Positions 11,439 to 29,387 of a stretch of DNA of 41,219 nt are shown here, one piece after another (the first letter of the stretch is position 1; each line of letters opens with the position of its first letter). Origin of the DNA: a virus. The DNA is taken from IMG/VR virus record IMGVR_UViG_3300024255_000059, positions 1 through 41,219 of that record; one strand, written 5' to 3'. The notes below the pieces were generated by a model. It worked only from the letters and a program-made list of their open reading frames with translations, searched no databases and was not told the DNA's origin. Position numbers and translations under genes: made by a program.

Positions 11439-12278
11439 TCATTTTAAAGATTGTCCTAACTTTTGACCAATTGCTAAATAATCTTCAATTGGTCCTTTAT
11501 TGATGCCTAACTGGTTTGTTTCAAAGTTTTTTGCAACCATGTTTAATATCCCATCTTCAATATAGGATAATACGCCAATCGGTGTAGAACAGTCACCGTC
11601 AATTTCTTTTAACATTTCTTTTTCGGCCATTACAGTATGCCATGTATCAATATCATTTCTTGCCCAACACCATGCTGTAATAGTTTCATCTATTGGTGTT
11701 TTAGGCTTTCTTGTTTGAAGAGCAATAACGCCTTGACCTGGTGCAGGTAACATATCTGCAGTTCCAAATACATGACTTGCTTTATGAGTTAATCCCAATG
11801 TATCAAGTCCTGCTTTAGCAACTACGATCGCATCATATTCGCCATTCTCTTGTTTAGCGATTCGACTATCAATATTACCTCTAATAGGGACTATAGTTGC
11901 TCCTGGATATAACTCTTGTAACTGGTAAGACCTTCTAGGGCTACTTGTGCCTATGGTCCTAGGGTTTATATTATTACCGACTAAACAGTCACTAAAGTCA
12001 CTTCTAGGTAACACACAGGTCACTTCAAGCAGGTCGTCGTTATCTCTTGTTAAATCTTTAAAGGCATGACATGCAATATCAATATCTCCATTAATAAGTG
12101 CTGTTTCTATTTCTTTACAGAATACTCCTTTGTTTCCCATTTCTTCAATGGTTAACTCTGGATTTAAGTCTGCTTGTGAATGTATGAATACAGTTTCTAA
12201 ATCAATGCTAAGATGATTTCTTGCTTTTTCAGTATATGCTACTGCTAACTGTGATTGTCTTGTTCCAATTTTGTACAT
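11439..12278 (-). CDS. hemC: Porphobilinogen deaminase (hydroxymethylbilane synthase)
   Basis: A 279-aa enzyme that joins four porphobilinogens into hydroxymethylbilane, the precursor of heme and other tetrapyrroles. The family signatures are present: GTRQSQLA at the N-terminus, FCKEIETALINGDIDIACH, the catalytic Asp75 in HAFKD, TSSPRRSYQL at 111-120, RGNIDSR at 133-139 and PAPGQGVIAL at 179-187. The dipyrromethane-cofactor cysteine is Cys230 in DGDCSTPIG. Bacterial HemC is usually near 310 aa, so the C-terminal domain is slightly short, but no key residue is missing. The ATG lies 12 nt after the 3' end of a tRNA-Glu gene and has only a weak ribosome binding site. HemE lies on the other strand 8 kb away. 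Confidence 0.95.
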   Translation of the reverse strand: MYKIGTRQSQLAVAYTEKARNHLSIDLETVFIHSQADLNPELTIEEMGNKGVFCKEIETALINGDIDIACHAFKDLTRDNDDLLEVTCVLPRSDFSDCLVGNNINPRTIGTSSPRRSYQLQELYPGATIVPIRGNIDSRIAKQENGEYDAIVVAKAGLDTLGLTHKASHVFGTADMLPAPGQGVIALQTRKPKTPIDETITAWCWARNDIDTWHTVMAEKEMLKEIDGDCSTPIGVLSYIEDGILNMVAKNFETNQLGINKGPIEDYLAIGQKLGQSLK

Positions 12279-12290
12279 AATATAATTTCT

Positions 12291-12365
12291 TGGTACCCCG
12301 TAGGAGAGTCGAACTCCTGTTGCCGAGATGAAAACCCGGTGTCCTAACCACTAGACGAACGGGGC
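12291..12365 (-). tRNA. tRNA-Glu (anticodon UUC)
   Basis: The reverse strand folds into a 75-nt cloverleaf. The acceptor stem pairs GCCCCGT with ACGGGGT (first pair G-U). The anticodon arm is CCGGG-TTTTCAT-CTCGG with anticodon TTC. The T-arm has GTTCGACTC, and CCA is encoded at the 3' end. It lies immediately upstream of hemC and was probably transcribed with it. Phage tRNAs usually supplement translation of AT-rich phage codons (here GAA). Charged tRNA-Glu is also the first substrate of C5-pathway heme synthesis. Confidence 0.95.
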
Positions 12366-14994: not shown

Positions 14995-15031
14995 TTGCAA
15001 TTATTTTGACTTATTTTCAATTTGCAATATT

Positions 15032-15039
15032 ATAAATAA
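15032..15039 (+). promoter_or_regulatory. Perfect T4-type late promoter driving the curli-like cassette
   Basis: An exact TATAAATA ending 36 nt before the first ATG of the cassette (15076). The genes that follow run to 24290, mostly overlapping or closely packed, with no other convincing plus-strand promoter or terminator until 24295. The whole 9 kb accessory block is therefore probably expressed late, with the virion genes. Confidence 0.8.
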
Positions 15040-15075
15040 GACTTGAGGCCCTAAGCTTCAAAAATGGAGTAAACA

Positions 15076-15372
15076 ATGGAACAAATCTTGCAATTGATAT
15101 CTGATGTAGGTTTACCTATAGCAGGCGCTTTAGTGATGGGATTCTTTATCTTTATCATTATTAAGCAGATGATGGAAGGACTTATTGATAATATCAAAAC
15201 TTTAACAATTTTCAGTGAAGGGCTAGAAAATAGAGCGCGCTCTATGAGTAATGAAATTGTTAAAATCGACCTGCTAGTTTCTAGCGCATTAGACTTGAAA
15301 CCAGATACAGAAAGAATTGCACGAGCTGAAAATTTTATTGAAGACGGTAAACTGGACGTGAGGAGAGATTAA
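15076..15372 (+). CDS. Small holin-like/YvrJ-like membrane protein A
   Basis: A 98-aa protein: short N-terminal helix (MEQILQLISDVGLP), one membrane span (about 14-32) and a helical, charged cytoplasmic or periplasmic tail. The layout resembles the 15574 protein (xLVSEYGFP then a span, then a coiled helix), so the two are probably paralogs. Small one-span proteins of this kind include YvrJ-family and some holin-like proteins. It is the first gene of the late cassette. A role in membrane permeabilisation or in anchoring the export system is possible but unproven. Confidence 0.65.
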   Translation: MEQILQLISDVGLPIAGALVMGFFIFIIIKQMMEGLIDNIKTLTIFSEGLENRARSMSNEIVKIDLLVSSALDLKPDTERIARAENFIEDGKLDVRRD

Positions 15373-15374
15373 CA

Positions 15375-15584
15375 ATGTTATACTGTGATTATACATTTTC
15401 TATTGACGGAAGTGGATTAAAATTAACAGACAAAGATACACAGTGGGAAAAGTACCAACAAGTAAAGATTGAGAATACACCTTTACAAGTAGGAGATACT
15501 TTTACTTTACTGACCGACGAAGACGGGTGCATGTTTTTTAGAAAAAATGCTCCTGTACAATATGAGTTGAACTTTGGAATTTGA
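15375..15584 (+). CDS. Small beta-rich protein of unknown function
   Basis: A 69-aa protein with strand-like segments (YTFSIDGSGLKLT, QVGDTFTLLTDEDGCMFFRK). It begins 2 nt after the previous stop and overlaps the next gene by 11 nt. Many marine T4-like phages carry a short protein of this shape. The function is unknown. Confidence 0.6.
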   Translation: MLYCDYTFSIDGSGLKLTDKDTQWEKYQQVKIENTPLQVGDTFTLLTDEDGCMFFRKNAPVQYELNFGI

Positions 15585-15873
15585 TGTAGCTCAATTAGTA
15601 TCAGAATACGGTTTCCCAACAATCATGGTTGTTGGTTTGGGTTACTTCGTATATTTCGTTTGGAAATTTATAAACGAGAAGATACAACCAGCTATTGATA
15701 AACATCACATGCAATTAATTAAAGTAATTGACCGTGTTAGAATGTTAGACCAAGACCTTATAAGATTACAACAAAAAGTAAATGTAGTTTTGGAATATAG
15801 AGCTCGACAAGAATTGTTAAAACATTACGAAGACAAAATCGAGCTAGAAAAGAGAAATAAAGATGAAGATTAA
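15574..15873 (+). CDS. Small holin-like/YvrJ-like membrane protein B
   Basis: A 99-aa protein with start codon TTG at 15574, inside the end of the previous gene. The N-terminus EFDVAQLVSEYGFP is followed by one membrane span (about 16-33) and a long amphipathic/coiled helix (IDRVRMLDQDLIRLQQKVNV). It resembles the 15076 protein in layout, and both precede csgF. The TTG start is inferred because no ATG or GTG lies before the conserved N-terminal helix. Confidence 0.65.
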   Translation: MEFDVAQLVSEYGFPTIMVVGLGYFVYFVWKFINEKIQPAIDKHHMQLIKVIDRVRMLDQDLIRLQQKVNVVLEYRARQELLKHYEDKIELEKRNKDED

Positions 15874-16366
15874 TGGAACATACTTAGGATTACTTGTAAT
15901 TGGATTGTATTTTTCAGTTCAAGTCTGTGCAGAACCTATTGTGCACAAATTTAAAAATCCTAGCTTCAGTGGTATAGGAACAGGTGCTCATTATTTGACT
16001 ATTGAGAACCAAGAACATTCACGTAAGAAAGCAATTAAGGATGCTCTTGAAGCTGCAGAAAGAGCAGCAGAAAGAGAAATTGACAACTCAACATTATCAA
16101 AATTTATACGGAACTTGGAAAGTAGAATATATGCTCAATTAGCAAAACAGTTAGTTGACAATATGTTTTCAAATGATAACCCAGTTCGATTTGGTTCATT
16201 TGTACTCGAAGGCTCAACAGTGACTTATGAAGTCATTACAAATATAGATGGAACTGAATTTATTAAAATGACAATTGTAGATGAGAATGGAACAACTACA
16301 GTCATTGAAATACCAATTGGTTCTGGTAACTTTGGCGGAGACGGCAATGCGACTGACGGCGGCTAG
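15863..16366 (+). CDS. csgF: CsgF-like curli assembly adaptor
   Basis: A 167-aa exported protein with a signal peptide (about 1-23, ending VCA). The mature N-terminus IVHKFKNPSFSGIG matches the CsgF segment F-x-N-P-x-F-G-G, known from E. coli to insert into the CsgG pore. A helix-rich middle (SKFIRNLESRIYAQLAKQL) and a C-terminal strand region (YEVITNIDGTEFIKMTIVD, then TTVIEIP) match the rest of the family. E. coli CsgF is about 138 aa; the extra length is a charged helical insertion near 48-75 and a Gly/Asp tail. It overlaps csgG, as expected for a coupled pair. Confidence 0.9.
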   Translation: MKINGTYLGLLVIGLYFSVQVCAEPIVHKFKNPSFSGIGTGAHYLTIENQEHSRKKAIKDALEAAERAAEREIDNSTLSKFIRNLESRIYAQLAKQLVDNMFSNDNPVRFGSFVLEGSTVTYEVITNIDGTEFIKMTIVDENGTTTVIEIPIGSGNFGGDGNATDGG

Positions 16367-17291
16367 TATTGCAATACTATTTCTAGCTGGTTGTGCACAG
16401 ATGCCACAATGGTCAGATGGACCTGGATATTGTTCATACGAGACTGGTCAATTTGAACAAGGGTTCGGTAAAGTTAGAGATAAAAACGGTGATGGTATGG
16501 TATTAGACAAACTATACACTGGTACAAGAAAATATGTTGGTGGTAAATTTATTTGCATAGAACAACCAGAAGTTGTTAACTTACCAGCATATGTAGAGTT
16601 ATTAAATCTACCACCTGCAAAAACAAAACCTGTAGTTGCAGTTTATAACTTTGGAGATAAAACTGGACAAAGAAAAGATTCACAAAGTGGTCAATCATTT
16701 TCTACAGCAGTAACACAAGGTGGAACAGAATTAATTATTGATGCGCTTAAAACAGCAGGTGGAGGAACCTGGTTTAGAGTAGCAGAAAGACAAGGGATTG
16801 ATGCTCTTGTTAGGGAAAGACAAATCATTCGCTCAGGCAGAGAAGAAGTAGCAAGAGCGACTGGTGAAGAAGTACAAAAACTGGGACCATTATTATTTGC
16901 AGGTATGGTAATCGAAGGCGGGATTATCGGATATGACAGTAATATTAAAACAGGTGGTCGAGGCGCAAGAACGCTCGGTATTGGTTTTAGTAGGCAATAT
17001 AGGCAAGACCAAGTAGTAATTTCATTAAGAGCAGTTAGTGTTCTTACAGGTGAAGTACTCTTAAATGTACAAACTAAAAAGACAATTTTAAGTTATGGCT
17101 CTGGTGGTGACGTATTTAGATTTTACGAGCAGGGCACACAGTTGGTTGAGTATGAAGACGGTGTAGGAAATAATGAGTCAGTGACGTATGCAGTACGAAC
17201 AGCAATAGAAGCTGCCGTGCTGGAAATGGTCTATCAAGGGAATCGTCGTGGGTTCTGGGAGATAGATTTTAATAAAGAGGAAGAAGAATGA
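16347..17291 (+). CDS. csgG: CsgG-like outer-membrane curli secretion channel (lipoprotein)
   Basis: A 314-aa protein homologous to the nonameric CsgG pore that exports curlin subunits. The lipobox LAGC at 13-16 follows a short hydrophobic signal, so it is lipidated and sent to the outer membrane. Clear family blocks are VVAVYNFGDKTGQ, SFSTAVTQGGTELIIDALK, the FRVAERQGIDAL helix, VEGGIIGYDSN, GARTLGIGFSRQYRQDQV, TKKTILSYGSGGDVFRF and the end RRGFWEID. I chose the ATG at 16347 because it has GGCGGAG upstream and gives a proper lipoprotein signal. The longer reading from 16281 would bury the lipobox. It overlaps csgF by 20 nt. Confidence 0.95.
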   Translation: MRLTAASIAILFLAGCAQMPQWSDGPGYCSYETGQFEQGFGKVRDKNGDGMVLDKLYTGTRKYVGGKFICIEQPEVVNLPAYVELLNLPPAKTKPVVAVYNFGDKTGQRKDSQSGQSFSTAVTQGGTELIIDALKTAGGGTWFRVAERQGIDALVRERQIIRSGREEVARATGEEVQKLGPLLFAGMVIEGGIIGYDSNIKTGGRGARTLGIGFSRQYRQDQVVISLRAVSVLTGEVLLNVQTKKTILSYGSGGDVFRFYEQGTQLVEYEDGVGNNESVTYAVRTAIEAAVLEMVYQGNRRGFWEIDFNKEEEE

Positions 17292-18016
17292 TTAAGAAAC
17301 TTTTAGGCCTAAGTTTATTGATACTTCCAGCTTTCGTATTTGCACAAGCTACTGATGATAATGAAATAAACATTGAGCAAGTTGGTGATACATTAACATT
17401 GTACATCGACCAATACGGATATGGTAACAAAATAGGATTAGACGACTTTTCAAGTAGTTCTAGTGCTATGACAATTACGGGTTCTTCATTGAACATAAAC
17501 ATTGACCAAATAGGTAATGAAAACTTATTATTTGGTCCTGTTGTATCTGACAGTAGTACTTATAATTTATTGTTTACTGGCGATAGTAACTCAATGGATT
17601 GGAATATCGGTTACATAGGTAGCTCAGATAGTTCAACTATTGATTTAGATATTTCTGGTGATAGTAATACCTTGGACTTTGACCAAGGATTCAATGCAAG
17701 TGCTGAAAGATTGGATTTTGATTTAACACTTATTGGCGACAGCAATATTTTTGATATTGATATAGACGTCGATGACGCTATTTGGAATTTTGATATTACA
17801 GGTGGAAGCAACAACATCAACACCATGCAGAAAGATGGTGGAGAGCACGAGATTAACTTGACTCTAGATGGCTCATCAGCTGATATCGATATTAATCAAA
17901 TGAGTGGTACATGTGCTACAGGTGTAACAACTTGTAATGGCATCATCACTTTAGATGTTGATAGCGAAAATGCGACTATACAAATCAATCAGAAAGATTC
18001 ATCTAGCGATAGTTAA
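17288..18016 (+). CDS. Curlin-like amyloid-repeat protein 1
   Basis: A 242-aa secreted protein: signal peptide (about 1-19, VFAQA), then INIEQVGDTLTLYIDQYGYG, the curlin-type N-x-I-x-Q-x-G pattern. The rest is built of about six units of some 23 residues with GDSN or a variant in the turn and alternating Asp/hydrophobic strands (SGDSNTLDFDQG, IGDSNIFDIDID, TGGSNNINTMQK). Canonical curlin repeats carry S-x5-Q-x-G-x2-N; here Asp often replaces Gln, so the fibre would be very acidic. A Cys pair (CATGVTTC) sits near the C-terminus. The start overlaps csgG by 4 nt and has GAGGAAG upstream. It is probably the major or minor subunit (CsgA/CsgB role). Confidence 0.88.
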   Translation: MIKKLLGLSLLILPAFVFAQATDDNEINIEQVGDTLTLYIDQYGYGNKIGLDDFSSSSSAMTITGSSLNINIDQIGNENLLFGPVVSDSSTYNLLFTGDSNSMDWNIGYIGSSDSSTIDLDISGDSNTLDFDQGFNASAERLDFDLTLIGDSNIFDIDIDVDDAIWNFDITGGSNNINTMQKDGGEHEINLTLDGSSADIDINQMSGTCATGVTTCNGIITLDVDSENATIQINQKDSSSDS

Positions 18017-19130
18017 AGCATTTTTATTTTTGACAGTATTGTCAATTAATCTGTCTGCAGCAGATTCTATTGGCAATATTGTCGAATTTAAGGGCGATGC
18101 ATCTCTTACGAGAGAAGCAGGTGCGGAACTCGTTATTGAACAAAAACAAATCCCCGAAGTTCAAATGAACGATACGGCCGAAACAGAAAATGGCCGAATT
18201 AAAATAGAATTCTTAGACGAGGCAGAACTTAGCCTCACAGAAAATACTCGAGTATATATCGACCGAGTATATTACGACCCAGACCCAAGTAAATCAAAAA
18301 TGGCTATGAGAATGGCAATGGGAACCGCTAGGTTCGCATCAGGTCGTTTGGGAATGGTCAATCAAAACAATATTGATATACAAACACCTACTGCTAGTAT
18401 TGCAGTTCGTGGAACAGACTTTACAACCACCATTGACGAGTTAGGGAGGTCTCTTGTAGTACTACTTCCTGATGCGTATGGTAACCCTTCGGGTGTCATA
18501 GAAGTATCTAATCTAGGAGGTACTGTGACCCTAGATGAGGCTTACGCAGCTACTATGGTATCAACTTTAGACAGTCCACCAACTCCTCGAGTACAACTAT
18601 CCAATATTACTCCAGCAATGATTGATAATATGTTTATTGTATCTCCACCTCAAGAAATACAAGAAGCTATTGATGAAGAATTGGCTGATGATTCAGACCA
18701 AGACCAAGGATTGTTGGATGTAGATTTTTTAGAATTTAACGAATTAGAATATGATGCACTTGAAGAAGATGCATTAGAATTTACAGAACTCGATATTGAC
18801 TATTTAGATGTCGATTTCTTAACAGATTTATTAGATGTTGTCGAGGAACTTGTTAAGACAACAGCAGCTCTTGATGATAGAGCAATTTCAGGTACATCAT
18901 TAGGAGCTCAAATTAAAGGAGCAAGTTTTGGTTTAAATGCAGATTCACAATATAATGTATTTGAACAAGATGGAAATATAGTTTTTTATAGAAATGTACA
19001 AGGCACAATAAGAATCGTGCTCGCAGTGGATTCTTCAGTAAAAATTGATACTGAAGTTGAAGGCTATTCTGGTATAATTGATTTAAACGGGGGAAATGAT
19101 TCCACAATTATAATTAAGCAAGGCGGATAA
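17970..19130 (+). CDS. Exported FecR-domain protein with a curlin-like C-terminus
   Basis: A 386-aa protein. The start is taken at ATG 17970, giving a signal peptide ending near NLSAAD; the ATG at 17955 is the alternative. Residues about 30-185 form a FecR domain (IGNIVEFKGDASL, a TAETENGRIKIEFLD strand, TPTASIAVRGTDF). FecR domains are periplasmic beta-sandwiches used in signalling and surface assembly. Residues about 230-310 are an acidic run with repeated L(D/E)(F/Y) steps (LDVDFLEFNELEYDALEEDA). The last 20 residues (SGIIDLNGGNDSTIIIKQGG) have the turn and spacing of a curlin repeat. It overlaps curlin 1 by 47 nt and precedes curlin 2, so it belongs to the fibre system. Confidence 0.85.
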   Translation: MRLYKSIRKIHLAIVKAFLFLTVLSINLSAADSIGNIVEFKGDASLTREAGAELVIEQKQIPEVQMNDTAETENGRIKIEFLDEAELSLTENTRVYIDRVYYDPDPSKSKMAMRMAMGTARFASGRLGMVNQNNIDIQTPTASIAVRGTDFTTTIDELGRSLVVLLPDAYGNPSGVIEVSNLGGTVTLDEAYAATMVSTLDSPPTPRVQLSNITPAMIDNMFIVSPPQEIQEAIDEELADDSDQDQGLLDVDFLEFNELEYDALEEDALEFTELDIDYLDVDFLTDLLDVVEELVKTTAALDDRAISGTSLGAQIKGASFGLNADSQYNVFEQDGNIVFYRNVQGTIRIVLAVDSSVKIDTEVEGYSGIIDLNGGNDSTIIIKQGG

Positions 19131-19133
19131 ATA

Positions 19134-19229
19134 ATGTATAACTATTACTATAATAATTATCAAAGATATTTAAAATTAAAATATGGATGGTCAGTACGAC
19201 CAGGGCAAATAGTGGATATTTACGTATGA
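19134..19229 (+). CDS. 31-aa tyrosine-rich micro-protein
   Basis: A short frame starting MYNYYYNNYQRYLKLKYG and ending VDIYV; 9 of 31 residues are Tyr. It has a good ribosome binding site (AAGGCGG, about 8 nt before the ATG). Its TGA overlaps the ATG of curlin 2 (ATGA), the coupling pattern used across this operon. The gap it fills would otherwise be the only non-coding 95 nt in the cassette. No family is known to me. Confidence 0.5.
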   Translation: MYNYYYNNYQRYLKLKYGWSVRPGQIVDIYV

Positions 19230-19951
19230 CAAAATTAACATTAACAAAATTATTTTGTATTTTATTATTAATTACTTTAGCTGTATCAGCTGATGATAAT
19301 GTAATCAGTATAGAACAAACTGGTGATAATTTTCAATTAGGTATTGACCAATTTGGTCACTCTAATAACATCAACATGCTAGATAGTAATTCATATATCT
19401 CTGCAACAAATTTAGACATGTATTTAGTTCAAGTGAATACAAGCTCTACAGCACTTCCTAATAAAATTAGATTTGATGAAATAAGTGGTCAAGGCAATCA
19501 AATGAAATTAGGTCAAGGTATTGACTGGACTGATATTACATCAGACACTAACTTGTCTTGGAGTTACGATGGTTGGGAAGGCGGTGGCCACGAAATAGAT
19601 ATCACAATGTATGGTGATTATAATCAATTAGCAGTACAACAAACAAACCAATCTACTGCACTCGACGGACATAACTTTGATTTACATTTAGCAGGTGATA
19701 ACAACGAAGTTAAAATAAAGCAACAAAGTGATGGTGCAAAGAGTATAGACCTTACAGTTTACAATGACTGGAACGATGTATTCATTAGACAAAAAGGAAA
19801 CGGTGCTACTCACAACGCAAATATTACTCTTGATGGATTATATGGAACTGATTTAATATTAAAGCAAATGAGCCAAACAAGTCAAACATATACATTAAGT
19901 GTTGACTGTATGAATTTTAATGGATGCGGAGTAACAGTAACACAGGAATAA
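19226..19951 (+). CDS. Curlin-like amyloid-repeat protein 2
   Basis: A 241-aa secreted paralog of curlin 1: signal peptide (about 1-21, LAVSA), then DDNVISIEQTGDNFQLGIDQ, matching the first repeat of curlin 1. Units of about 23-25 residues follow with a GDxN turn and Q-containing strands (MYGDYNQLAVQQTNQ, LAGDNNEVKIKQQSDGA, NDWNDVFIRQKGNGA). These are closer to canonical curlin repeats than those of curlin 1. A C-terminal Cys pair (CMNFNGC) and the final VTVTQE recall the end of curlin 1. I chose ATG 19226, which overlaps the 31-aa ORF stop; the upstream ATG at 19187 lies inside that ORF. Confidence 0.87.
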   Translation: MTKLTLTKLFCILLLITLAVSADDNVISIEQTGDNFQLGIDQFGHSNNINMLDSNSYISATNLDMYLVQVNTSSTALPNKIRFDEISGQGNQMKLGQGIDWTDITSDTNLSWSYDGWEGGGHEIDITMYGDYNQLAVQQTNQSTALDGHNFDLHLAGDNNEVKIKQQSDGAKSIDLTVYNDWNDVFIRQKGNGATHNANITLDGLYGTDLILKQMSQTSQTYTLSVDCMNFNGCGVTVTQE

Positions 19952-19953
19952 TT

Positions 19954-20265
19954 ATGGACTTAGATATATACGGCAATCCAGTAGGAACTAAATATCCAGG
20001 AGAAGGAAACTGTCCTGAAGGTATGATGTGTATTCCTGAAAACGAATTTCATATGCAGCTCGAGGAAGCAGGTATGGAATACGACGAAACATCAAGAGAG
20101 ATACAACCCGTAGGTGATGCCGAAGCCATCATAGACTTTACAAAAGATTTGTTATTTTTAGATATTAGTGTAATATTTAATATGGCAGTTCCTCTTACAA
20201 TATTCGCGGTATATGGTTTAACGATTTATGCGGCGGTGAAATTCATTCAAAAGAAATTAAGTTAA
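19954..20265 (+). CDS. Small membrane protein with C-terminal anchor
   Basis: A 103-aa protein beginning MDLDIYGNPVGTKYPGEGN, with two cysteines in NCPEGMMC, an acidic middle and one C-terminal membrane span (about 75-96) ending in a basic FIQKKLS. AGGA lies 7 nt before this ATG; the earlier ATG at 19924 lies inside curlin 2. It sits between the curlin and heme genes and has no resemblance I can see to CsgE or CsgC. Confidence 0.7.
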   Translation: MDLDIYGNPVGTKYPGEGNCPEGMMCIPENEFHMQLEEAGMEYDETSREIQPVGDAEAIIDFTKDLLFLDISVIFNMAVPLTIFAVYGLTIYAAVKFIQKKLS

Positions 20266-20268
20266 ATT

Positions 20269-21204
20269 ATGAAAACATTATTACAAAGAGTTATACAAGA
20301 TAAAGAAGTGAACTTATATCCAGTCTGGTTAATGAGACAAGCTGGAAGATACATGCCAGAATATATGGCGATCAAAGCAGAAAGTAATGGCTTTTTAGAT
20401 ATGGCATTAACGCCTGAAAAAGCAACTGAGATTACAATGCAACCTATTAAAGAATTTGATATGGATGCAGCAATTATATTCTCAGATATATTAATCATCA
20501 ATTATGCTTTAGGGCAAGAGTTAGATTATAACCCTGCTCCAGAGCTTGGACCTTATAAAGAATCTTTTTGGGAAACAACAGAAAGCGAGTTTATTGAAAA
20601 ATGTGAACCCGTTTATGAAGCAATACGAAGAGTAAGAGAAGAACTTGATGATAGTAAATCACTTATTGGATTTGCAGCAGCTCCTTATACGCTCTGTAAG
20701 TACATGTGTGATACTGTGGATTCAGATATAGTTAACCGATTAATACCATATATTGTTACTCACCTTTCAATGCAGATTGAAGCAGGTTGTGATACAGTAC
20801 AAATCTTTGATAGTCACGCTGGTGATATATCAGAACATGACTTTGATGAAATCATTATTGAACCAACAAAAATTATTGTTGATGTCATTAGAGCACATTA
20901 TCCTCATGTTTGTATTATTGCTTTCCCAAGATTAGTTGGTAATAAAATAAACGAATACATTGAGATTGTAAATCCTGATTGTACAAATATTAGTGATGAT
21001 TTACCAGTTGACGAAATTAATGGTGAAGTACTACAAGGTGGAATCTCAGTTAAAAGATTAATTAAGGGCGAAGACATCACCCCCGTTTTAGATAAAATGA
21101 AAGATAAACCTTACATTGTTAATCTAGCTCACGGCATACATAAAACTACACCAGTAGAAAATGTTAGAGCATTGGTTAATACAGTTAAAGAATATCGTGC
21201 TTAA
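20269..21204 (+). CDS. hemE: Uroporphyrinogen decarboxylase
   Basis: A 311-aa cytosolic enzyme that removes four carboxyl groups from uroporphyrinogen III to give coproporphyrinogen III. The defining motif PVWLMRQAGRYMPEY is at 18-32 with both arginines (Arg23, Arg27). FSDIL carries Asp73, GFAAAPYT carries Tyr140, QIFDSHAG carries Ser182 and NLAHGIH carries His288. All match the catalytic set known from the family. Cellular enzymes are about 340-350 aa; the shortening is spread through loops, so this looks functional. There is no clear ribosome binding site. It lies 3 nt after the preceding stop and may be read by coupling. Confidence 0.95.
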   Translation: MKTLLQRVIQDKEVNLYPVWLMRQAGRYMPEYMAIKAESNGFLDMALTPEKATEITMQPIKEFDMDAAIIFSDILIINYALGQELDYNPAPELGPYKESFWETTESEFIEKCEPVYEAIRRVREELDDSKSLIGFAAAPYTLCKYMCDTVDSDIVNRLIPYIVTHLSMQIEAGCDTVQIFDSHAGDISEHDFDEIIIEPTKIIVDVIRAHYPHVCIIAFPRLVGNKINEYIEIVNPDCTNISDDLPVDEINGEVLQGGISVKRLIKGEDITPVLDKMKDKPYIVNLAHGIHKTTPVENVRALVNTVKEYRA

Positions 21205-23245
21205 ATATCTCACAAAATGGTGGACTGTCTGTATTACTATTGCAGCATTCAGTGCAATTCAGATTAGTAACCCAGATTTAATTCAGAGCGTTAAGTATTC
21301 TTATTATGATTATCTACAATCCAAACAAGAAACAATTCACTCAAGTGATATTATATTAGTCAACATTGACGAAAAAGCGATCGCGCAAGAAGGTCAATAT
21401 CCATGGCCAAGAGATATACATGCTAAATATTTAGATGCAGCTCCTGCTGATGCACTCAATGTATTGAACATTATATTTTCCGAAAATGATAGATTTGGCA
21501 AAGACAATGTTCTTTCTCAAGCAATGGCAAATAAAGCAGTTGTATTATCTTCTGCTCCTACTCAACAAACATCAGATGGAGTTGGCACCTTTGTAGGTGT
21601 TGCAACTTTTGGAGAACAAAATGATAATTGGCTTTACGAATTTCCAGGCTTACTCTATCCTATTGATAGTTTGTCTAATTGGGCTTTTGGGGTTGGGGCT
21701 ACAGTTGCAATACCTGACCAACCAACAGGAGTTGTGCGAAGAGCCCCGTTGGTCGTCAAAGCAGCCGGGAATAGGTATCCATCTCTCGCGCTCGACACTT
21801 TACGAGTGTATTCTGGAGAACCAAGCTACCAAATGAAAGTAGGTCCACAAGGAGTGGAATGGATTCGCATGGGTCGACAAGACCCAATTACAACAAACTC
21901 TTTTGCAGAAGTACCAATATCTTTTTGGAATTCTTTTGACTCAATCAGTATAACAGAATTAAATGACTCCTATAGTGGTAAGATACTCTTGTATGGAATA
22001 ACAGCAGAAGGTTACTCTAATCCAGTTGCAACCCCAAAGGGTGCAGTGTATCCCCACGAAGTTCAAGCTCATCTAATCCAGACCGTCCTTTCAGGCGTTG
22101 AAATAAAGATTCCCGACTGGACTGCAATATTTGAGCTTTTCTTTCTTGTGATATGCTGTCTAGGAATCCTTGCAGCGGTCTATGTCTTGCCCACATCTCT
22201 TGCGGTGATAACGAGTCTTCTTCTCGTTGGTTCCGGAGCCGGATTGAGTTACTATTTTTGGACTTCCGCCTTAACCTTTGTTGATGCATCTTTAGTTTCA
22301 TTAGCTTCCTTAGTTGTATTTGCTCAGTCAAGTTATAATAAGTATTATATCACATTCCAAGAGAAACGTCAAATAGAAAAGCAATTTGCAGGTTATGCAT
22401 CGCCCACAGTTGTTCGCCTCTTACAAGAGAATCCTTCTCTAATAAAAGATGGCATGAAGCGTGAGATTAGTATTTGTTTTTCTGATTTACGAGGTTTCAC
22501 TCCACTAGGAGAAAGCTTTGGTGATGATGTCAAGGGACTGACAAAATTAATGAACGAATATATGGATGCGATCACCGAGCCTGTTCTCCATGCAGATGGT
22601 ATGATTATAAAATATATAGGGGATGCGTCAATGCACATTCACAATGCTCCTATAGAAGATAAAGAACATCCTAAAAATGCAGTACAAACTGGACTGAATA
22701 TGCTTCGAGCAGTAGAGAAATTTAATGAACAGATTACAGCAGAAGGTAGACCGCCAATTGGTATGGGAGCTGGGATTAACACTGGTCTTGGTTATCTTGG
22801 TGAGATGGGGTCTACAGCAAGACATAGTTATGATGTACTTGGTGACAGCGTTTCAACAGCTGCACGAATTGAGTCTAAATGTAAAGAATATGGTTGTTTA
22901 TTATTAGTTGGTGGAGATACAGTAAAACACTGTAAAAAGGATTTCTTTTTCCTCAAGGTAGATGATTTAGCAGTAAAAGGTAAAACTGTAGGAATTGAAA
23001 TATATACTGTGCTTGACTTGAATAAAGATAAATATATTAAACCGGCAGAGATGCACGAAGCAATGCATTCAAATTATCAAAAACAAAACTTTGATAAGGC
23101 GATCAAAATATGTAATGACCTTATGGATTGCTTTGAAGGACAGATGAAAGGTTATTACAACATGTGGATTGAGCGTTGTGAGTATATGAAAACGCAAGAT
23201 TTACCTAAGGATTGGAATGGGGTATTTATCGCGACTACTAAGTAG
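21197..23245 (+). CDS. CHASE2-domain class III adenylate/guanylate cyclase
   Basis: A 682-aa membrane sensor. The N-terminal span (about 8-25) is followed by an extracytoplasmic CHASE2 domain (about 45-300; IILVNIDEKAI, YPWPRDIHAKYLD, NIIFSEND), three spans (about 309-375) and a C-terminal cyclase domain (about 420-620). Metal-binding aspartates are Asp430 (FSDLRGFT) and Asp476 (KYIGDASM). Lys472 and Asp546 match the adenine-selecting pair, and Arg557 is kept. The transition-state Asn of class III cyclases is Ser553 here (GDSVSTAAR). The start is GTG 21197, which overlaps the hemE stop by 8 nt; the ATG at 21161 would add residues coded inside hemE. It would make cAMP in response to a periplasmic signal if active. 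Confidence 0.92.
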   Translation: MLKYLTKWWTVCITIAAFSAIQISNPDLIQSVKYSYYDYLQSKQETIHSSDIILVNIDEKAIAQEGQYPWPRDIHAKYLDAAPADALNVLNIIFSENDRFGKDNVLSQAMANKAVVLSSAPTQQTSDGVGTFVGVATFGEQNDNWLYEFPGLLYPIDSLSNWAFGVGATVAIPDQPTGVVRRAPLVVKAAGNRYPSLALDTLRVYSGEPSYQMKVGPQGVEWIRMGRQDPITTNSFAEVPISFWNSFDSISITELNDSYSGKILLYGITAEGYSNPVATPKGAVYPHEVQAHLIQTVLSGVEIKIPDWTAIFELFFLVICCLGILAAVYVLPTSLAVITSLLLVGSGAGLSYYFWTSALTFVDASLVSLASLVVFAQSSYNKYYITFQEKRQIEKQFAGYASPTVVRLLQENPSLIKDGMKREISICFSDLRGFTPLGESFGDDVKGLTKLMNEYMDAITEPVLHADGMIIKYIGDASMHIHNAPIEDKEHPKNAVQTGLNMLRAVEKFNEQITAEGRPPIGMGAGINTGLGYLGEMGSTARHSYDVLGDSVSTAARIESKCKEYGCLLLVGGDTVKHCKKDFFFLKVDDLAVKGKTVGIEIYTVLDLNKDKYIKPAEMHEAMHSNYQKQNFDKAIKICNDLMDCFEGQMKGYYNMWIERCEYMKTQDLPKDWNGVFIATTK

Positions 23246-23798
23246 TTTACTAATTTGCTTTCTTGCAAATCCGACCCATGCAAAGACCCATGCAAATTAC
23301 GAACCAGTCATTTATTACCATACAGATGCACAAATAGCATTGTTTATGAAGGGCTATCATTCTCCTTATAAACCAGAGTATGTTCGTAAAGTAGTTGGTA
23401 AAGTTCGTATAGGAAAAAATGGTGCTCTAATTAATTTACCAGACCCGGCTGTTGCTTATCCAAAACTTAATTTAGATTTTGATTTTGAAGAAGACGATTG
23501 GAACTATCAAGCAAACTTTTTAATCGTACATGCACTTGATTTATATTCAACATATAAAGGATTAAAGTATGATTGTATTTCAGAAGCAAATCCGTTAGTT
23601 GGTAAACATCCATCTCTAGGTGAACTAATATTCTTTAAAGTTGGTATTATTACTTTATTGGAAGGAATATATGGTGATTATCCAACGGAGTGGGAAGCGT
23701 TTCAAACAGTTTCAGCTATGACTACAGGAGTTGTAGTACAAAATAATTTCGATGTAATAAGCGATGCGAGAGATAATCCTCGTTGTAAGAAAAGATAA
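23217..23798 (+). CDS. Exported/membrane protein resembling DUF5658
   Basis: A 193-aa protein with a signal peptide (about 1-22, NPTHA) and a 75-residue outside part. A hydrophobic region at about 100-180 follows, with the signature LDLYSTYKGLKYDCISEANPLVG-type residues (LD..ST..GL....EANPL) seen in DUF5658-like small membrane proteins, and FKVGIITLLEGIYG. AAGGA precedes the ATG, which lies inside the end of the cyclase gene (29-nt overlap). The tight linkage suggests a partner of the cyclase or the export system. The function is unknown. Confidence 0.7.
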   Translation: MGYLSRLLSSLLICFLANPTHAKTHANYEPVIYYHTDAQIALFMKGYHSPYKPEYVRKVVGKVRIGKNGALINLPDPAVAYPKLNLDFDFEEDDWNYQANFLIVHALDLYSTYKGLKYDCISEANPLVGKHPSLGELIFFKVGIITLLEGIYGDYPTEWEAFQTVSAMTTGVVVQNNFDVISDARDNPRCKKR

Positions 23799-23799
23799 A

Positions 23800-24126
23800 A
23801 TGGTGGAGTTAACAGATGCAGCAATATCTAAAGCGATTGAAAAAACAACAAGCCCGTGCCCAAATAATATCAGACTTGGTGTTTCTAGCGGTGGGTGTGC
23901 TGGGTATGAGTATATTATTACTTATTCTCACGAAATAAACAATGACGATAATGTTTTAGATTATGGTAAATTTAAAATAGTCATAAACGAAATGTCTAAG
24001 CCTTATTTAGAAGGGTCTACGATAGATTGGGTAAAAGAAGGATTAAATGAATATTTTAAAATCATTAATCCAAAAGAAGTTGCATCATGTGGATGTGGCA
24101 TATCAATTCAATTTGAGGAAAATTAA
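23800..24126 (+). CDS. A-type Fe-S cluster carrier (IscA/ErpA/HesB family)
   Basis: A 108-aa protein of the HesB/IscA fold (E. coli IscA is 107 aa). It starts MVELTDAAISKAIEK and has the three cluster-ligand cysteines: Cys33 in GGCAGYEY, and Cys97 and Cys99 in SCGCG. A-type carriers hand Fe-S clusters to apo-enzymes. I chose ATG 23800 because the family starts at this helix; the ATG at 23764 lies in the previous gene. A link to heme synthesis is possible, since the oxygen-independent HemN uses an Fe-S cluster, but the target is unknown. Confidence 0.93.
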   Translation: MVELTDAAISKAIEKTTSPCPNNIRLGVSSGGCAGYEYIITYSHEINNDDNVLDYGKFKIVINEMSKPYLEGSTIDWVKEGLNEYFKIINPKEVASCGCGISIQFEEN

Positions 24127-24128
24127 AA

Positions 24129-24290
24129 ATGGAATTTATATTATTAGGAATTGTAATTTCAGTTAGTGTAGTAACTATAGCAAGTTTATTATTCATAAGA
24201 GAAGGTAGTAAAGGAATTACTAAACCTTATAAAACAAAAGATGGTACTTCTCGTACCGCTAAAGCAGCAAGAGTAGATTACATCGTATAA
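24129..24290 (+). CDS. 53-aa single-span membrane protein
   Basis: A 53-aa frame starting MEFILLGIVISVSVVTIASL: one membrane span (about 3-23), then a basic tail (IREGSKGITKPYKTKDG, ending ARVDYIV). GAGG lies 10 nt before the ATG, and the gene starts 2 nt after the IscA stop. Its stop is 5 nt before the terminator stem, so it is the last gene of the late cassette. No family is recognised. Confidence 0.75.
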   Translation: MEFILLGIVISVSVVTIASLLFIREGSKGITKPYKTKDGTSRTAKAARVDYIV

Positions 24291-24294
24291 GAAA

Positions 24295-24319
24295 AAAGGC
24301 TCTTGTTTAGAGAGCCTTT
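24295..24319. terminator. Bidirectional terminator between the late cassette and the minus-strand block
   Basis: A perfect 9-bp stem AAAGGCTCT / AGAGCCTTT with a 7-nt loop. The A-run to the left gives a U-tract on the minus strand and Ts follow on the right, so it can stop both converging transcripts. Confidence 0.88.
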
Positions 24320-24338
24320 CAGTTGGTCTTTGTTTAAC

Positions 24339-24688: not shown

Positions 24689-24770
24689 TTGGATTGACTC
24701 CTAGTAATGAAACACAAAATAAAGAAAATAGAGCTACTAATTCTAAATTATCTTTAAATCTTTCTTTCAT
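24681..24770 (-). CDS. 29-aa hydrophobic micro-protein
   Basis: A 29-aa frame (MKERFKDNLELVALFSLFCV, then SLLGVNPNV) with one short span. Its ATG shares a base with the stop of the EF-hand gene (TAATG), and its end overlaps the 34-aa frame. The coupling chain supports it, but its size leaves doubt. Confidence 0.45.
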   Translation of the reverse strand: MKERFKDNLELVALFSLFCVSLLGVNPNV

Positions 24771-25021
24771 TATTTTACTTTAGGACATTTACTTTTTATG
24801 ATATACGATGTTGCCTCTCGGATTTCTCGTTTATCTAAAAAGGAGTCTCTGTTTTTATCAGCATGCTTATAAAGACTTAACTTTACTTTGCATCCTGATG
24901 CTTCTAGCTCATTCACGCTAATTAGATTGTCACCATTTATATCAAATCGTTCCATTCTCCAGTCGGCGTAGGCTGGTGTTGCTATTAAGCAAGCAACAAT
25001 TGCTGTTGTAACTTTGGTCAT
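24770..25021 (-). CDS. Exported EF-hand calcium-binding protein
   Basis: An 83-aa protein with a signal peptide (about 1-19, PAYA) and two EF-hand loops. Loop 1 is at 27-38 (D27, N29, D31, E38) and loop 2 at 55-66 (D55, N57, D59, E66). Both keep the calcium ligands at positions 1, 3, 5 and 12. Two cysteines (Cys44, Cys79) could form a disulfide. It would bind calcium in the periplasm or outside. The ATG follows GAGATAAATA, where the octamer-like sequence is part of the leader rather than a usable promoter. It heads the run of micro-genes that ends at the terminator. Confidence 0.85.
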   Translation of the reverse strand: MTKVTTAIVACLIATPAYADWRMERFDINGDNLISVNELEASGCKVKLSLYKHADKNRDSFLDKREIREATSYIIKSKCPKVK

Positions 25022-28743: not shown

Positions 28744-28827
28744 TTATATGAGGAAAATGAGGCAAAATAGACCTACCCACCATAACCAGTGGGCAGATTT
28801 TATTTCTTCGATGATTTTCTTAATCAC
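28744..28827 (-). CDS. 27-aa membrane peptide coupled to the HD hydrolase gene
   Basis: A frame starting at a GTG that overlaps the stop of the HD gene (GTGA): VIKKIIEEIKSAHWLWWVGL, then FCLIFLI and a stop. A charged helix is followed by one span. Size and alternative start leave doubt; the overlap and hydrophobic pattern support it. Confidence 0.4.
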   Translation of the reverse strand: MIKKIIEEIKSAHWLWWVGLFCLIFLI

Positions 28828-29351
28828 TTCTTATCCCAGTTCTCGTTGAGCACGGTCTGAGCTTTATATAGAAGATTAGCATCAGCTTTTGTTAAGATGT
28901 TCAACATATATTGCTTTTCATGTTTGAAAGCTTTATGGAAGAACTTTTGGTCATGCTTGATTATAGATTCAGCATTAGACAAAAGGTCTGCTATTTTAAT
29001 TGTTTGGGCCTCGGGTGGTCCTAAAGCAAAATGGTCAGCATCCATCTTCTTACGAAACGCACGGTTTCCGTCTTCCTTATCGGAGACGTTTGTGCAATAG
29101 TGTACATATTCGGCAACAGTATAGCCAAATTTTTCTTTGATATCTCTTAATGTAACTGGAGTATCTTCTACAACATCGTGTAGTAAAGCTGCAGCTATCA
29201 TTTCTGTTGTAGCTTCAACTTCTTTTTCTAGAATATCTGCAACATGAATTGGGTGAACAACATAAGGTTCACCAGTATATTTTCTGCGTTGATCGCCATG
29301 TGCTTCTATAGCAAACATTGTAGCGTCACTTATTACTTTTCTGTCTATCAT
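28824..29351 (-). CDS. HD-domain hydrolase of the SpoT/MESH1 (ppGpp hydrolase) type
   Basis: A 175-aa protein with the compact HD fold of small alarmone hydrolases: FAIEAHGDQRRKYTGEPYVVH-type start (AH..Q.RK.TGEPY..HP), the metal-binding pair in ALLHDVVEDTP, FGYTVAEYV, and KIADLLSNAESI, the position of KLADRLHN in SpoT. MESH1 proteins are about 180 aa. It would remove the 3' diphosphate of (p)ppGpp and damp the stringent response. The start is ATG 29351, because the longer reading begins on the -35 box of this gene's own promoter. The ATG lies 8 nt after the -10 box, so the mRNA may be leaderless. Confidence 0.87.
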   Translation of the reverse strand: MIDRKVISDATMFAIEAHGDQRRKYTGEPYVVHPIHVADILEKEVEATTEMIAAALLHDVVEDTPVTLRDIKEKFGYTVAEYVHYCTNVSDKEDGNRAFRKKMDADHFALGPPEAQTIKIADLLSNAESIIKHDQKFFHKAFKHEKQYMLNILTKADANLLYKAQTVLNENWDKK

Positions 29352-29358
29352 ACTCGTT

Positions 29359-29387
29359 ATTATAACATGCTTTAAGTAGTTTGTCAA
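29359..29387 (-). promoter_or_regulatory. Consensus sigma70 (early) promoter at the start of the HD hydrolase gene
   Basis: On the minus strand TTGACA (29382-29387), 17 nt, TATAAT (29359-29364). Only 7 nt separate the -10 box from the ATG at 29351, so transcription would begin at or next to the start codon. Confidence 0.93.

Follow-up and report, generated by a model that had tools for sequence, protein, structure and literature searches.

A putative late curli-type secretion cassette with heme and iron-sulfur genes in a T4-like marine phage

The viral DNA analyzed here (IMG/VR virus record IMGVR_UViG_3300024255_000059, our G000; 41,219 bases, 36% G+C; "the window" below means this whole stretch) carries a rightward operon in which genes for CsgF, CsgG and two curlin-like subunits, CsgA1 and CsgA2, are joined by genes for a FecR-domain protein, a CHASE2 adenylate cyclase, the uroporphyrinogen decarboxylase HemE and an iron-sulfur (Fe-S) carrier of the IscA type (Table 1). 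The operon is very probably a genuine cassette that is under selection and belongs to the late phase of infection. It probably provides this T4-like marine phage with all that a minimal curli (type VIII) secretion system of the alphaproteobacterial kind needs, and would make a surface fibre late in infection. The curli core is already published for ocean phages, and the mention of CsgG-like genes in marine phages in an earlier note on this DNA is correct. As far as the literature was searched, the new elements are the iron-cofactor cargo, the conserved late promoter box, the curlin-like tail of the FecR-domain protein and the correction of published labels.

At least 588 IMG/VR contigs encode a relative of the window's CsgG, and 80 were kept for comparison of gene order. 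The order tm1-tm2-csgF-csgG-csgA1-fecR-csgA2-AC-DUF5658, in which tm1 and tm2 encode small membrane proteins and AC is the adenylate cyclase gene, is nearly constant in about 80 phage contigs, so that the comparison across relatives proposed in the earlier note came out in its favor. Nearly all complete cassettes have conserved copies of both curlin-type subunits, and in many the cyclase gene is followed by one of the DUF5658-like kind. Most cassette genes are under purifying selection, with ratios of nonsynonymous to synonymous substitution rates (dN/dS) of about 0.06-0.25; the exceptions are csgA2 (up to 0.43 against the most distant relative) and the DUF5658-like gene (0.4-0.6). Such constancy of order, together with the selection acting on most genes, argues against a chance arrangement.

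The genes csgF and csgG have been described in pelagimyophages, along with the idea of "sibling capture" (PMC7029224), and the order HK-CsgF-CsgG-CsgA/B-FecR-CsgA/B-AC, HK denoting a histidine kinase, was reported in podo- and myophages and found to be expressed in metatranscriptomes (PMC9599517). The window has the same genes in the same order as this pelagiphage cassette (PMC7029224, PMC9599517; Pelagibacter phage HTVC008M), to which it adds hemE, the DUF5658-like gene, iscA and, by gp23, hemC, while its relatives add iscU; none of these five genes is mentioned with the cassette in the papers searched. The cassette of the Methylophilales phage Melnitz (PMC9004378) also shares the order, its CsgG and cyclase being 49 and 51% identical to those of the window, but has no adjoining heme or Fe-S genes. 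Relative to csgBAC-csgDEFG of E. coli, CsgG is 41% and CsgF 26% identical and the curlin repeat motif is shared, whereas in the phage cassette no CsgE is found, FecR and a cyclase are present and a late promoter replaces control by CsgD.

Late expression, which the earlier note had claimed from a single perfect promoter, is well supported at the level of sequence. Fourteen rightward open reading frames (ORFs), mostly overlapping, run from the late box to position 24290, close to the 15 or so genes first counted; the stem-loop that had been taken as their terminator chiefly serves the convergent leftward genes, since its T-tract lies on the minus strand. The box itself is exact in the window, as had been stated. 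An exact TATAAATA lies within 160 bp upstream of tm1 in 60 of 91 genes (39 of 60 sequence clusters), against a background expectation of 0.015 per 160 bp, and NATAAATA is found there in 80 of the 91. Moreover, a -35 box is absent from 45 of 47 distinct contexts upstream of tm1, as befits a T4 late unit, although the window alone has a five-of-six match to TTGACA at -35; a sigma-70 promoter for the cassette (TTGACT...TATTAT) was rejected as it is not kept in relatives. In 37 of the 91 loci examined (e.g., L101, L098, and L162), the distance from TATAAATA to the start codon (ATG) of tm1 is exactly 5 nt, and the late message would therefore be leaderless or nearly so if the start-site spacing of T4 late promoters applies. 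A perfect sigma-70 promoter (TTGACA-17-TATAAT, 12 of 12 positions) points leftward at 14987-14959 on the minus strand, it and the late box facing away from each other, which is consistent with an early/late divide at the start of the cassette.

The identities that the earlier note had assigned to CsgF and CsgG were upheld by profile searches, as were those of the exported FecR protein, HemE, the CHASE2 cyclase and the IscA-type carrier (Table 1). Of the two curlin-repeat proteins it had named, CsgA1 matches the Pfam curlin repeat (Curlin_rpt, PF07012) at 19.7 bits, just below the cut-off of 20.7, whereas CsgA2 is recognized by other means. The Q.G..N motif occurs 1.43 times per protein in the CsgA1 family and 1.87 times in the CsgA2 family, vs. 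0.09 and 0.20 in shuffled sequences, and the Q/G/N columns are invariant in both family alignments. AlphaFold models are β-solenoids for CsgA1 (predicted local distance difference test 81, predicted template modeling score 0.77) and CsgA2 (80 and 0.80, respectively), and CsgA1 has among its structural matches 8enq, a fibril of E. coli CsgA (Z 11.1, 110 residues, 26% identity, root-mean-square deviation 9.1). Searches of PDB sequences with CsgA1 and CsgA2 profiles gave no convincing match, and Foldseek returned nothing at E below 0.001 for either model. All 88 CsgA1 and 59 of 75 CsgA2 sequences end in a tail of the hxhxQ type (h, hydrophobic) like that of the FecR protein. With a dN/dS of 0.06-0.11, as low as that of capsid genes, CsgA1 is among the most constrained products of the cassette; this would be unexpected if the pore alone mattered. 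A CsgG pore lipoprotein, CsgF and curlin-repeat subunits (CsgA2 by motif and predicted solenoid only), i.e., the constituents of type VIII secretion, are thus found together, and a complete minimal set, favored over a bare pore, is the best reading of these sequences. CsgF and CsgG would build the outer-membrane pore, through which CsgA1 and CsgA2, exported by Sec, would exit and stack as a β-solenoid fibre on the infected cell or on debris; that the cassette exports and assembles a fibre can be proposed with reasonable confidence. A cysteine pair is also present near the C-terminus of CsgA1 (17912-17935; C209 invariant) and of CsgA2 (19907-19927; C228 and C234 invariant), where a disulfide is possible.

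The N-terminus of the FecR-domain protein was judged by eye to be a signal peptide, and no sigma-binding (anti-sigma) domain was found in the protein, PF04773 being its sole match. Its tail, hydrophobic-x-hydrophobic-x-Q plus 0-4 residues, is present in 82 of 82 complete relatives, vs. 3% of shuffled tails, relatives that share descent and hence do not represent 82 independent events. In the cyclase, D442, D488, K484, and R569 are invariant in 52 sequences; the enzyme keeps the two metal-binding Asp, the Lys and Asp that pair with adenine, and the Arg. In plasmid records of Paracoccus and Shinella, fecR genes lie directly upstream of a CHASE2 cyclase gene, and curli genes are absent from the vicinity; a biofilm-regulating operon of Burkholderia encodes a LysM-FecR protein together with a CHASE2 kinase (PMC5192318). 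Judging from such neighborhoods, FecR and CHASE2 cyclase are a bacterial gene pair older than the cassette. As in the phage, an exported FecR-domain protein adjoins a CHASE2 sensor in all three genera; in contrast with the Paracoccus and Shinella pairs, the phage pair is split by a curlin gene and its FecR protein has the curlin-like end strand, which both bacterial partners lack. Because the tail occurs in all relatives and the pair existed beforehand, the name "ferric citrate regulator" is probably wrong for the phage protein. The phage cassette appears to merge a curli export set with a FecR/CHASE2 sensing pair, FecR having been adapted to the fibre, and an association of this protein with the fibre is possible, with chances somewhat short of even. 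It would join or cap the fibre through its end strand and would also be the periplasmic partner of the cyclase, the state of assembly being read out as cyclic AMP.

Between csgA2 and the cyclase gene lies a cargo slot that holds hemE, iscU, or iscU with iscA, and more rarely a glycosyltransferase gene with a gene for an LpxH-like phosphoesterase, or a Mom-like gene; the DNA-modification gene of the latter kind was seen at 13607-14185 of the relative L107. IscU proteins of the slot match NifU_N with E-values of 5e-39 to 1e-41 and have the three active-site Cys. Elsewhere iscA directly precedes tm1 or sits at the 3′ end of the cassette, which is its place in the window; there the Cys...Cys-x-Cys pattern of A-type carriers reads Cys...Cys-Gly-Cys (GGCAGYEY...SCGCG). 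Across 97 loci with flanks of up to 10 kb per locus, iscU and iscA were counted 30 times, each time within or next to the cassette (p 8e-10, the cassette accounting for 50% of the sequence); at the level of clusters, the same holds for 24 of 24 events (p 6e-8).

Regarding the heme genes, the active-site residues R23, R27, D73, Y145, and H288 of HemE are invariant, while the protein is without a loop of about 20 residues and scores 244 bits vs. an equivalog cut-off of 303 for TIGR01464. Its gene has a dN/dS of 0.08-0.11, and its synonymous divergence (dS) between close relatives is 0.51 vs. 0.9-1.7 for the csg genes and fecR, which suggests recent spread. The gene hemC, outside the range covered by the earlier note, adjoins gp23 in most members of the window's clade, and D75, R115/R116, and C230 of its product are invariant. 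Of 29 phage hemC loci, 14 have a tRNA-Glu(UUC) gene directly upstream of hemC; the C5 route to heme precursors uses tRNA-Glu as its substrate. The 35 HemE loci belong to the curli-phage clade of the window, to a second group that lacks curli and, in a few cases, to viral contigs further removed. L079 carries neither hemC nor hemE, and L013 carries hemE alone. The non-curli group has both genes (L167, 8007-8753 and 10001-10936; L071/L072, i.e., G004), in surroundings rich in genes that resemble those for 2-oxoglutarate oxygenases and radical-SAM proteins. A hemE gene with catalytic residues was not found in the cultured-phage records searched: matches to hemE or hemC in these were discarded as being of bacterial type (26-34% identity, with at least two plain Salmonella chromosome contigs). 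The phage-collection records AFYI01000006, AGRM01000005, and CAKLQF020000018, which have hemE, look like bacterial chromosome contigs. No report of a phage hemE was found in the phage literature searched. Porphobilinogen deaminase and coproporphyrinogen oxidase have been mentioned in "deep" pelagimyophages (PMC7029224); the deaminase gene, like valaS, hemO, and pcyX (PMC11480375) and the ferrochelatase gene of pelagiphages (PMC9599517), is an auxiliary heme-pathway gene of aquatic phages. The combination of hemC and hemE without hemB, hemD, hemF, or hemH, none of which was found in a 156-kb relative or in other long relatives, is another segment of the pathway.

The genes hemE (with hemC elsewhere) and iscA (or iscU in relatives) would be cargo of the late operon that supplies cofactors, most likely so that heme and Fe-S enzymes go on working in the infected cell; such general upkeep is their probable role. 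We also lean toward regarding them as ordinary auxiliary metabolic genes for which the cassette is a late-transcribed landing site with no functional link to curli. The variety of genes accepted between csgA2 and the cyclase gene favors this account, as do the joint occurrence of hemC and hemE in unrelated non-curli phages and the low dS of hemE, as after recent transfer; the confinement of iscU and iscA to cassettes or their borders, in at least three positions and in every cluster-level event within the roughly 10 kb of flanks sampled, speaks against it. An actual coupling of fibre assembly to iron cofactor supply, in which FecR would be both a fibre component and a ligand or brake of the CHASE2 cyclase, with cyclic AMP reporting on assembly, and in which IscU, IscA, and HemE would serve the late programme (e.g., iron loading or recovery) and not be random passengers, seems improbable, and any functional link of the fibre to the iron cofactors would be hypothetical. 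The earlier description of curli genes "fused" with heme, Fe-S and cyclase genes holds for gene order, which is statistically non-random for iscU and iscA, but does not extend to function.

Several observations weigh against a complete, fibre-forming curli cassette. CsgA2 has no Pfam curlin match at all. Generic β-solenoids (SufB/SufD), not curli, head the structural matches of both subunits; since most further matches of CsgA1 are solenoids of this general kind, curli is not provable by structure alone. CsgE (PF10627), which the earlier note had also failed to see, was not matched in the window or in the complete or long relatives G001, G003, HTVC008M, and Melnitz, CsgC and CsgD not having been searched separately. 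CsgE is the gating factor of type VIII secretion, which it enhances, and is reported to be non-essential. In 15 of the 52 cyclase sequences, those of the subgroup to which the window belongs, Ser stands in place of the usual transition-state Asn (N565), and the heme pathway is represented by two genes only. Finally, OM43 cultures infected with the curli phage Melnitz showed no clumping (PMC9004378).

This last result bears on what the fibre would be for. Its most likely purpose would be to hold host cells, debris, and virions together, a role that we put forward only tentatively, as an unlikely one taken by itself. Within the surface amyloid imagined in the earlier note, the export of fibre-type proteins is backed by the conserved subunits and the β-solenoid models, while the collecting of neighboring hosts, an idea published previously, is not favored by the Melnitz cultures. 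The lack of clumping would suit a coat of exported solenoid proteins that shields the infected cell from grazers or competing phages and involves neither long fibres nor aggregation, and so would the surface export machinery and the weak similarity of the FecR protein to the surface adhesin family Lsa33 (E 4e-7). Nevertheless, a late promoter is ill-timed for superinfection exclusion and curlin motifs point to polymerisation, and a mere coat is in our judgment rather unlikely. Less probable still is the lysis pore already proposed for the curli genes of Melnitz (PMC9004378), in which CsgG/CsgF would be a lysis or membrane-depolarising device (pinholin-like), the other genes passengers or triggers and tm1 and tm2 perhaps holin-like. 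The late promoter, the two small, weakly YvrJ-like membrane proteins that open the operon and a CsgG pore-constriction segment unlike that of E. coli CsgG are in keeping with such a device. However, the proposal presumed that Melnitz lacks csgA and csgB, as stated in PMC9004378, at odds with its GenBank record, which annotates two curlin-associated repeat proteins; the family as a whole has subunits and conserves them strongly, and the CsgG pore sits in the outer, not the inner, membrane.

As for the small membrane proteins, tm1 and tm2 occur paired in 84 of 90 loci and are a conserved part of the cassette; of 50,697 phage records, those of HTVC008M and Melnitz alone contain members of their family. 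In Pfam tests for kinases and holins, the commonest match was YvrJ (8 of 50 members, best E 0.05), and kinase families, HisKA/HATPase included, matched none of the 50, which are one-helix proteins of about 95 amino acids; the published "histidine kinase" label is not supported. It is therefore highly improbable that tm1 and tm2 are histidine kinases that control curli expression with FecR as an iron-citrate regulator (PMC9599517), a reading in keeping with the FecR domain match but not with a protein that has, in place of a cytoplasmic anti-sigma N-terminus, a signal peptide followed by the FecR domain and a curlin-like tail.

Table 1. Features of the cassette and its surroundings in the window (E, expectation value).
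Feature	Position	Strand	Evidence and remarks
hemC, porphobilinogen deaminase	11439-12278	-	TIGR00212 E 5e-66, above cut-off
tRNA-Glu(UUC)	12291-12365	-	12 nt upstream of hemC
T4-type late promoter box TATAAATA	15031-15038	+	exact match; conserved upstream of tm1
tm1, one-helix membrane protein with coiled-coil tail	15076-15372	+	phrog_18771 E 1e-21
Small ORF	15375-15584	+	present only in closest relatives
tm2, paralogue of tm1, weak YvrJ-like motif	15574-15873	+	phrog_18771 E 3e-26
CsgF, signal peptide and NPxF-G-type N-terminus	15863-16366	+	PF10614 E 9e-15; aligned with E. coli CsgF
CsgG, outer-membrane pore lipoprotein, lipobox LAGC	16353-17291	+	PF03783 E 1e-53; TTG start 16353 inferred
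CsgA1, exported curlin-repeat subunit	17288-18016	+	PF07012 E 8e-4; CsgA NCBIfam E 1e-6
Exported FecR-domain protein, curlin-like C-terminal strand	17997-19130	+	PF04773 E 5e-10; start inferred
CsgA2, second exported curlin-like subunit	19226-19951	+	repeat motif counts, family alignment, predicted β-solenoid
tm3, small clade-specific membrane protein	19924-20265	+	ORF list, locus comparison
hemE, uroporphyrinogen decarboxylase, shortened	20269-21204	+	URO-D E 9e-70; TIGR01464 E 2e-72
CHASE2 adenylate cyclase (class III)	21161-23245	+	CHASE2 E 9e-31; Guanylate_cyc E 2e-16
Exported DUF5658-like protein	23217-23798	+	PF18902 E 4e-4; recurs at cassette 3′ end; fast evolving
IscA/SufA-type Fe-S carrier	23788-24126	+	TIGR00049 E 8e-27, above cut-off; Fe-S_biosyn E 9e-13
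tm4, small membrane protein	24129-24290	+	ORF list
Stem-loop between convergent operons	24294-24320		T-tract on minus strand

Around the cassette, the left part of the window holds T4-like gp16, gp17, gp18, gp19, gp20, gp21, gp22, and gp23, and the right part phoH and genes for exonucleases, a ligase and glycosyltransferases. Its gp23 is about 65% identical to those of Sinorhizobium T4-like phages and of Melnitz and slightly less to those of cyanophages; bacterial relatives of its HemE are only about 30% identical, and no host can be assigned through this protein. The hemC region is 100% identical in three further IMG/VR contigs from different sample series, two of which also have the cassette, one entire and one as far as the cyclase gene; because the same layout is found in contigs of different series, an assembly artefact is unlikely. 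No tRNA was found in eight stretches searched of the relative G001. Beside the cassette, the minus strand encodes at 24770-25021 a small protein that is exported and carries two calcium-binding motifs of the EF-hand type. Also on the minus strand, at 28824-29387, lies a gene for an HD-type metal-dependent phosphohydrolase (phrog_990) similar to alarmone hydrolases.

Why abundant ocean phages carry curli genes has drawn published guesses that span host capture to lysis. The evidence assembled here favors a complete late cassette for fibre export over a bare pore and calls two published labels, the FecR regulator and the histidine kinase, into question. Genes for Fe-S and heme biosynthesis recur in or beside the curli cassette, a link not found in the literature searched. 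Since HTVC008M and Melnitz are both in culture, whether these phages make a fibre is directly testable.

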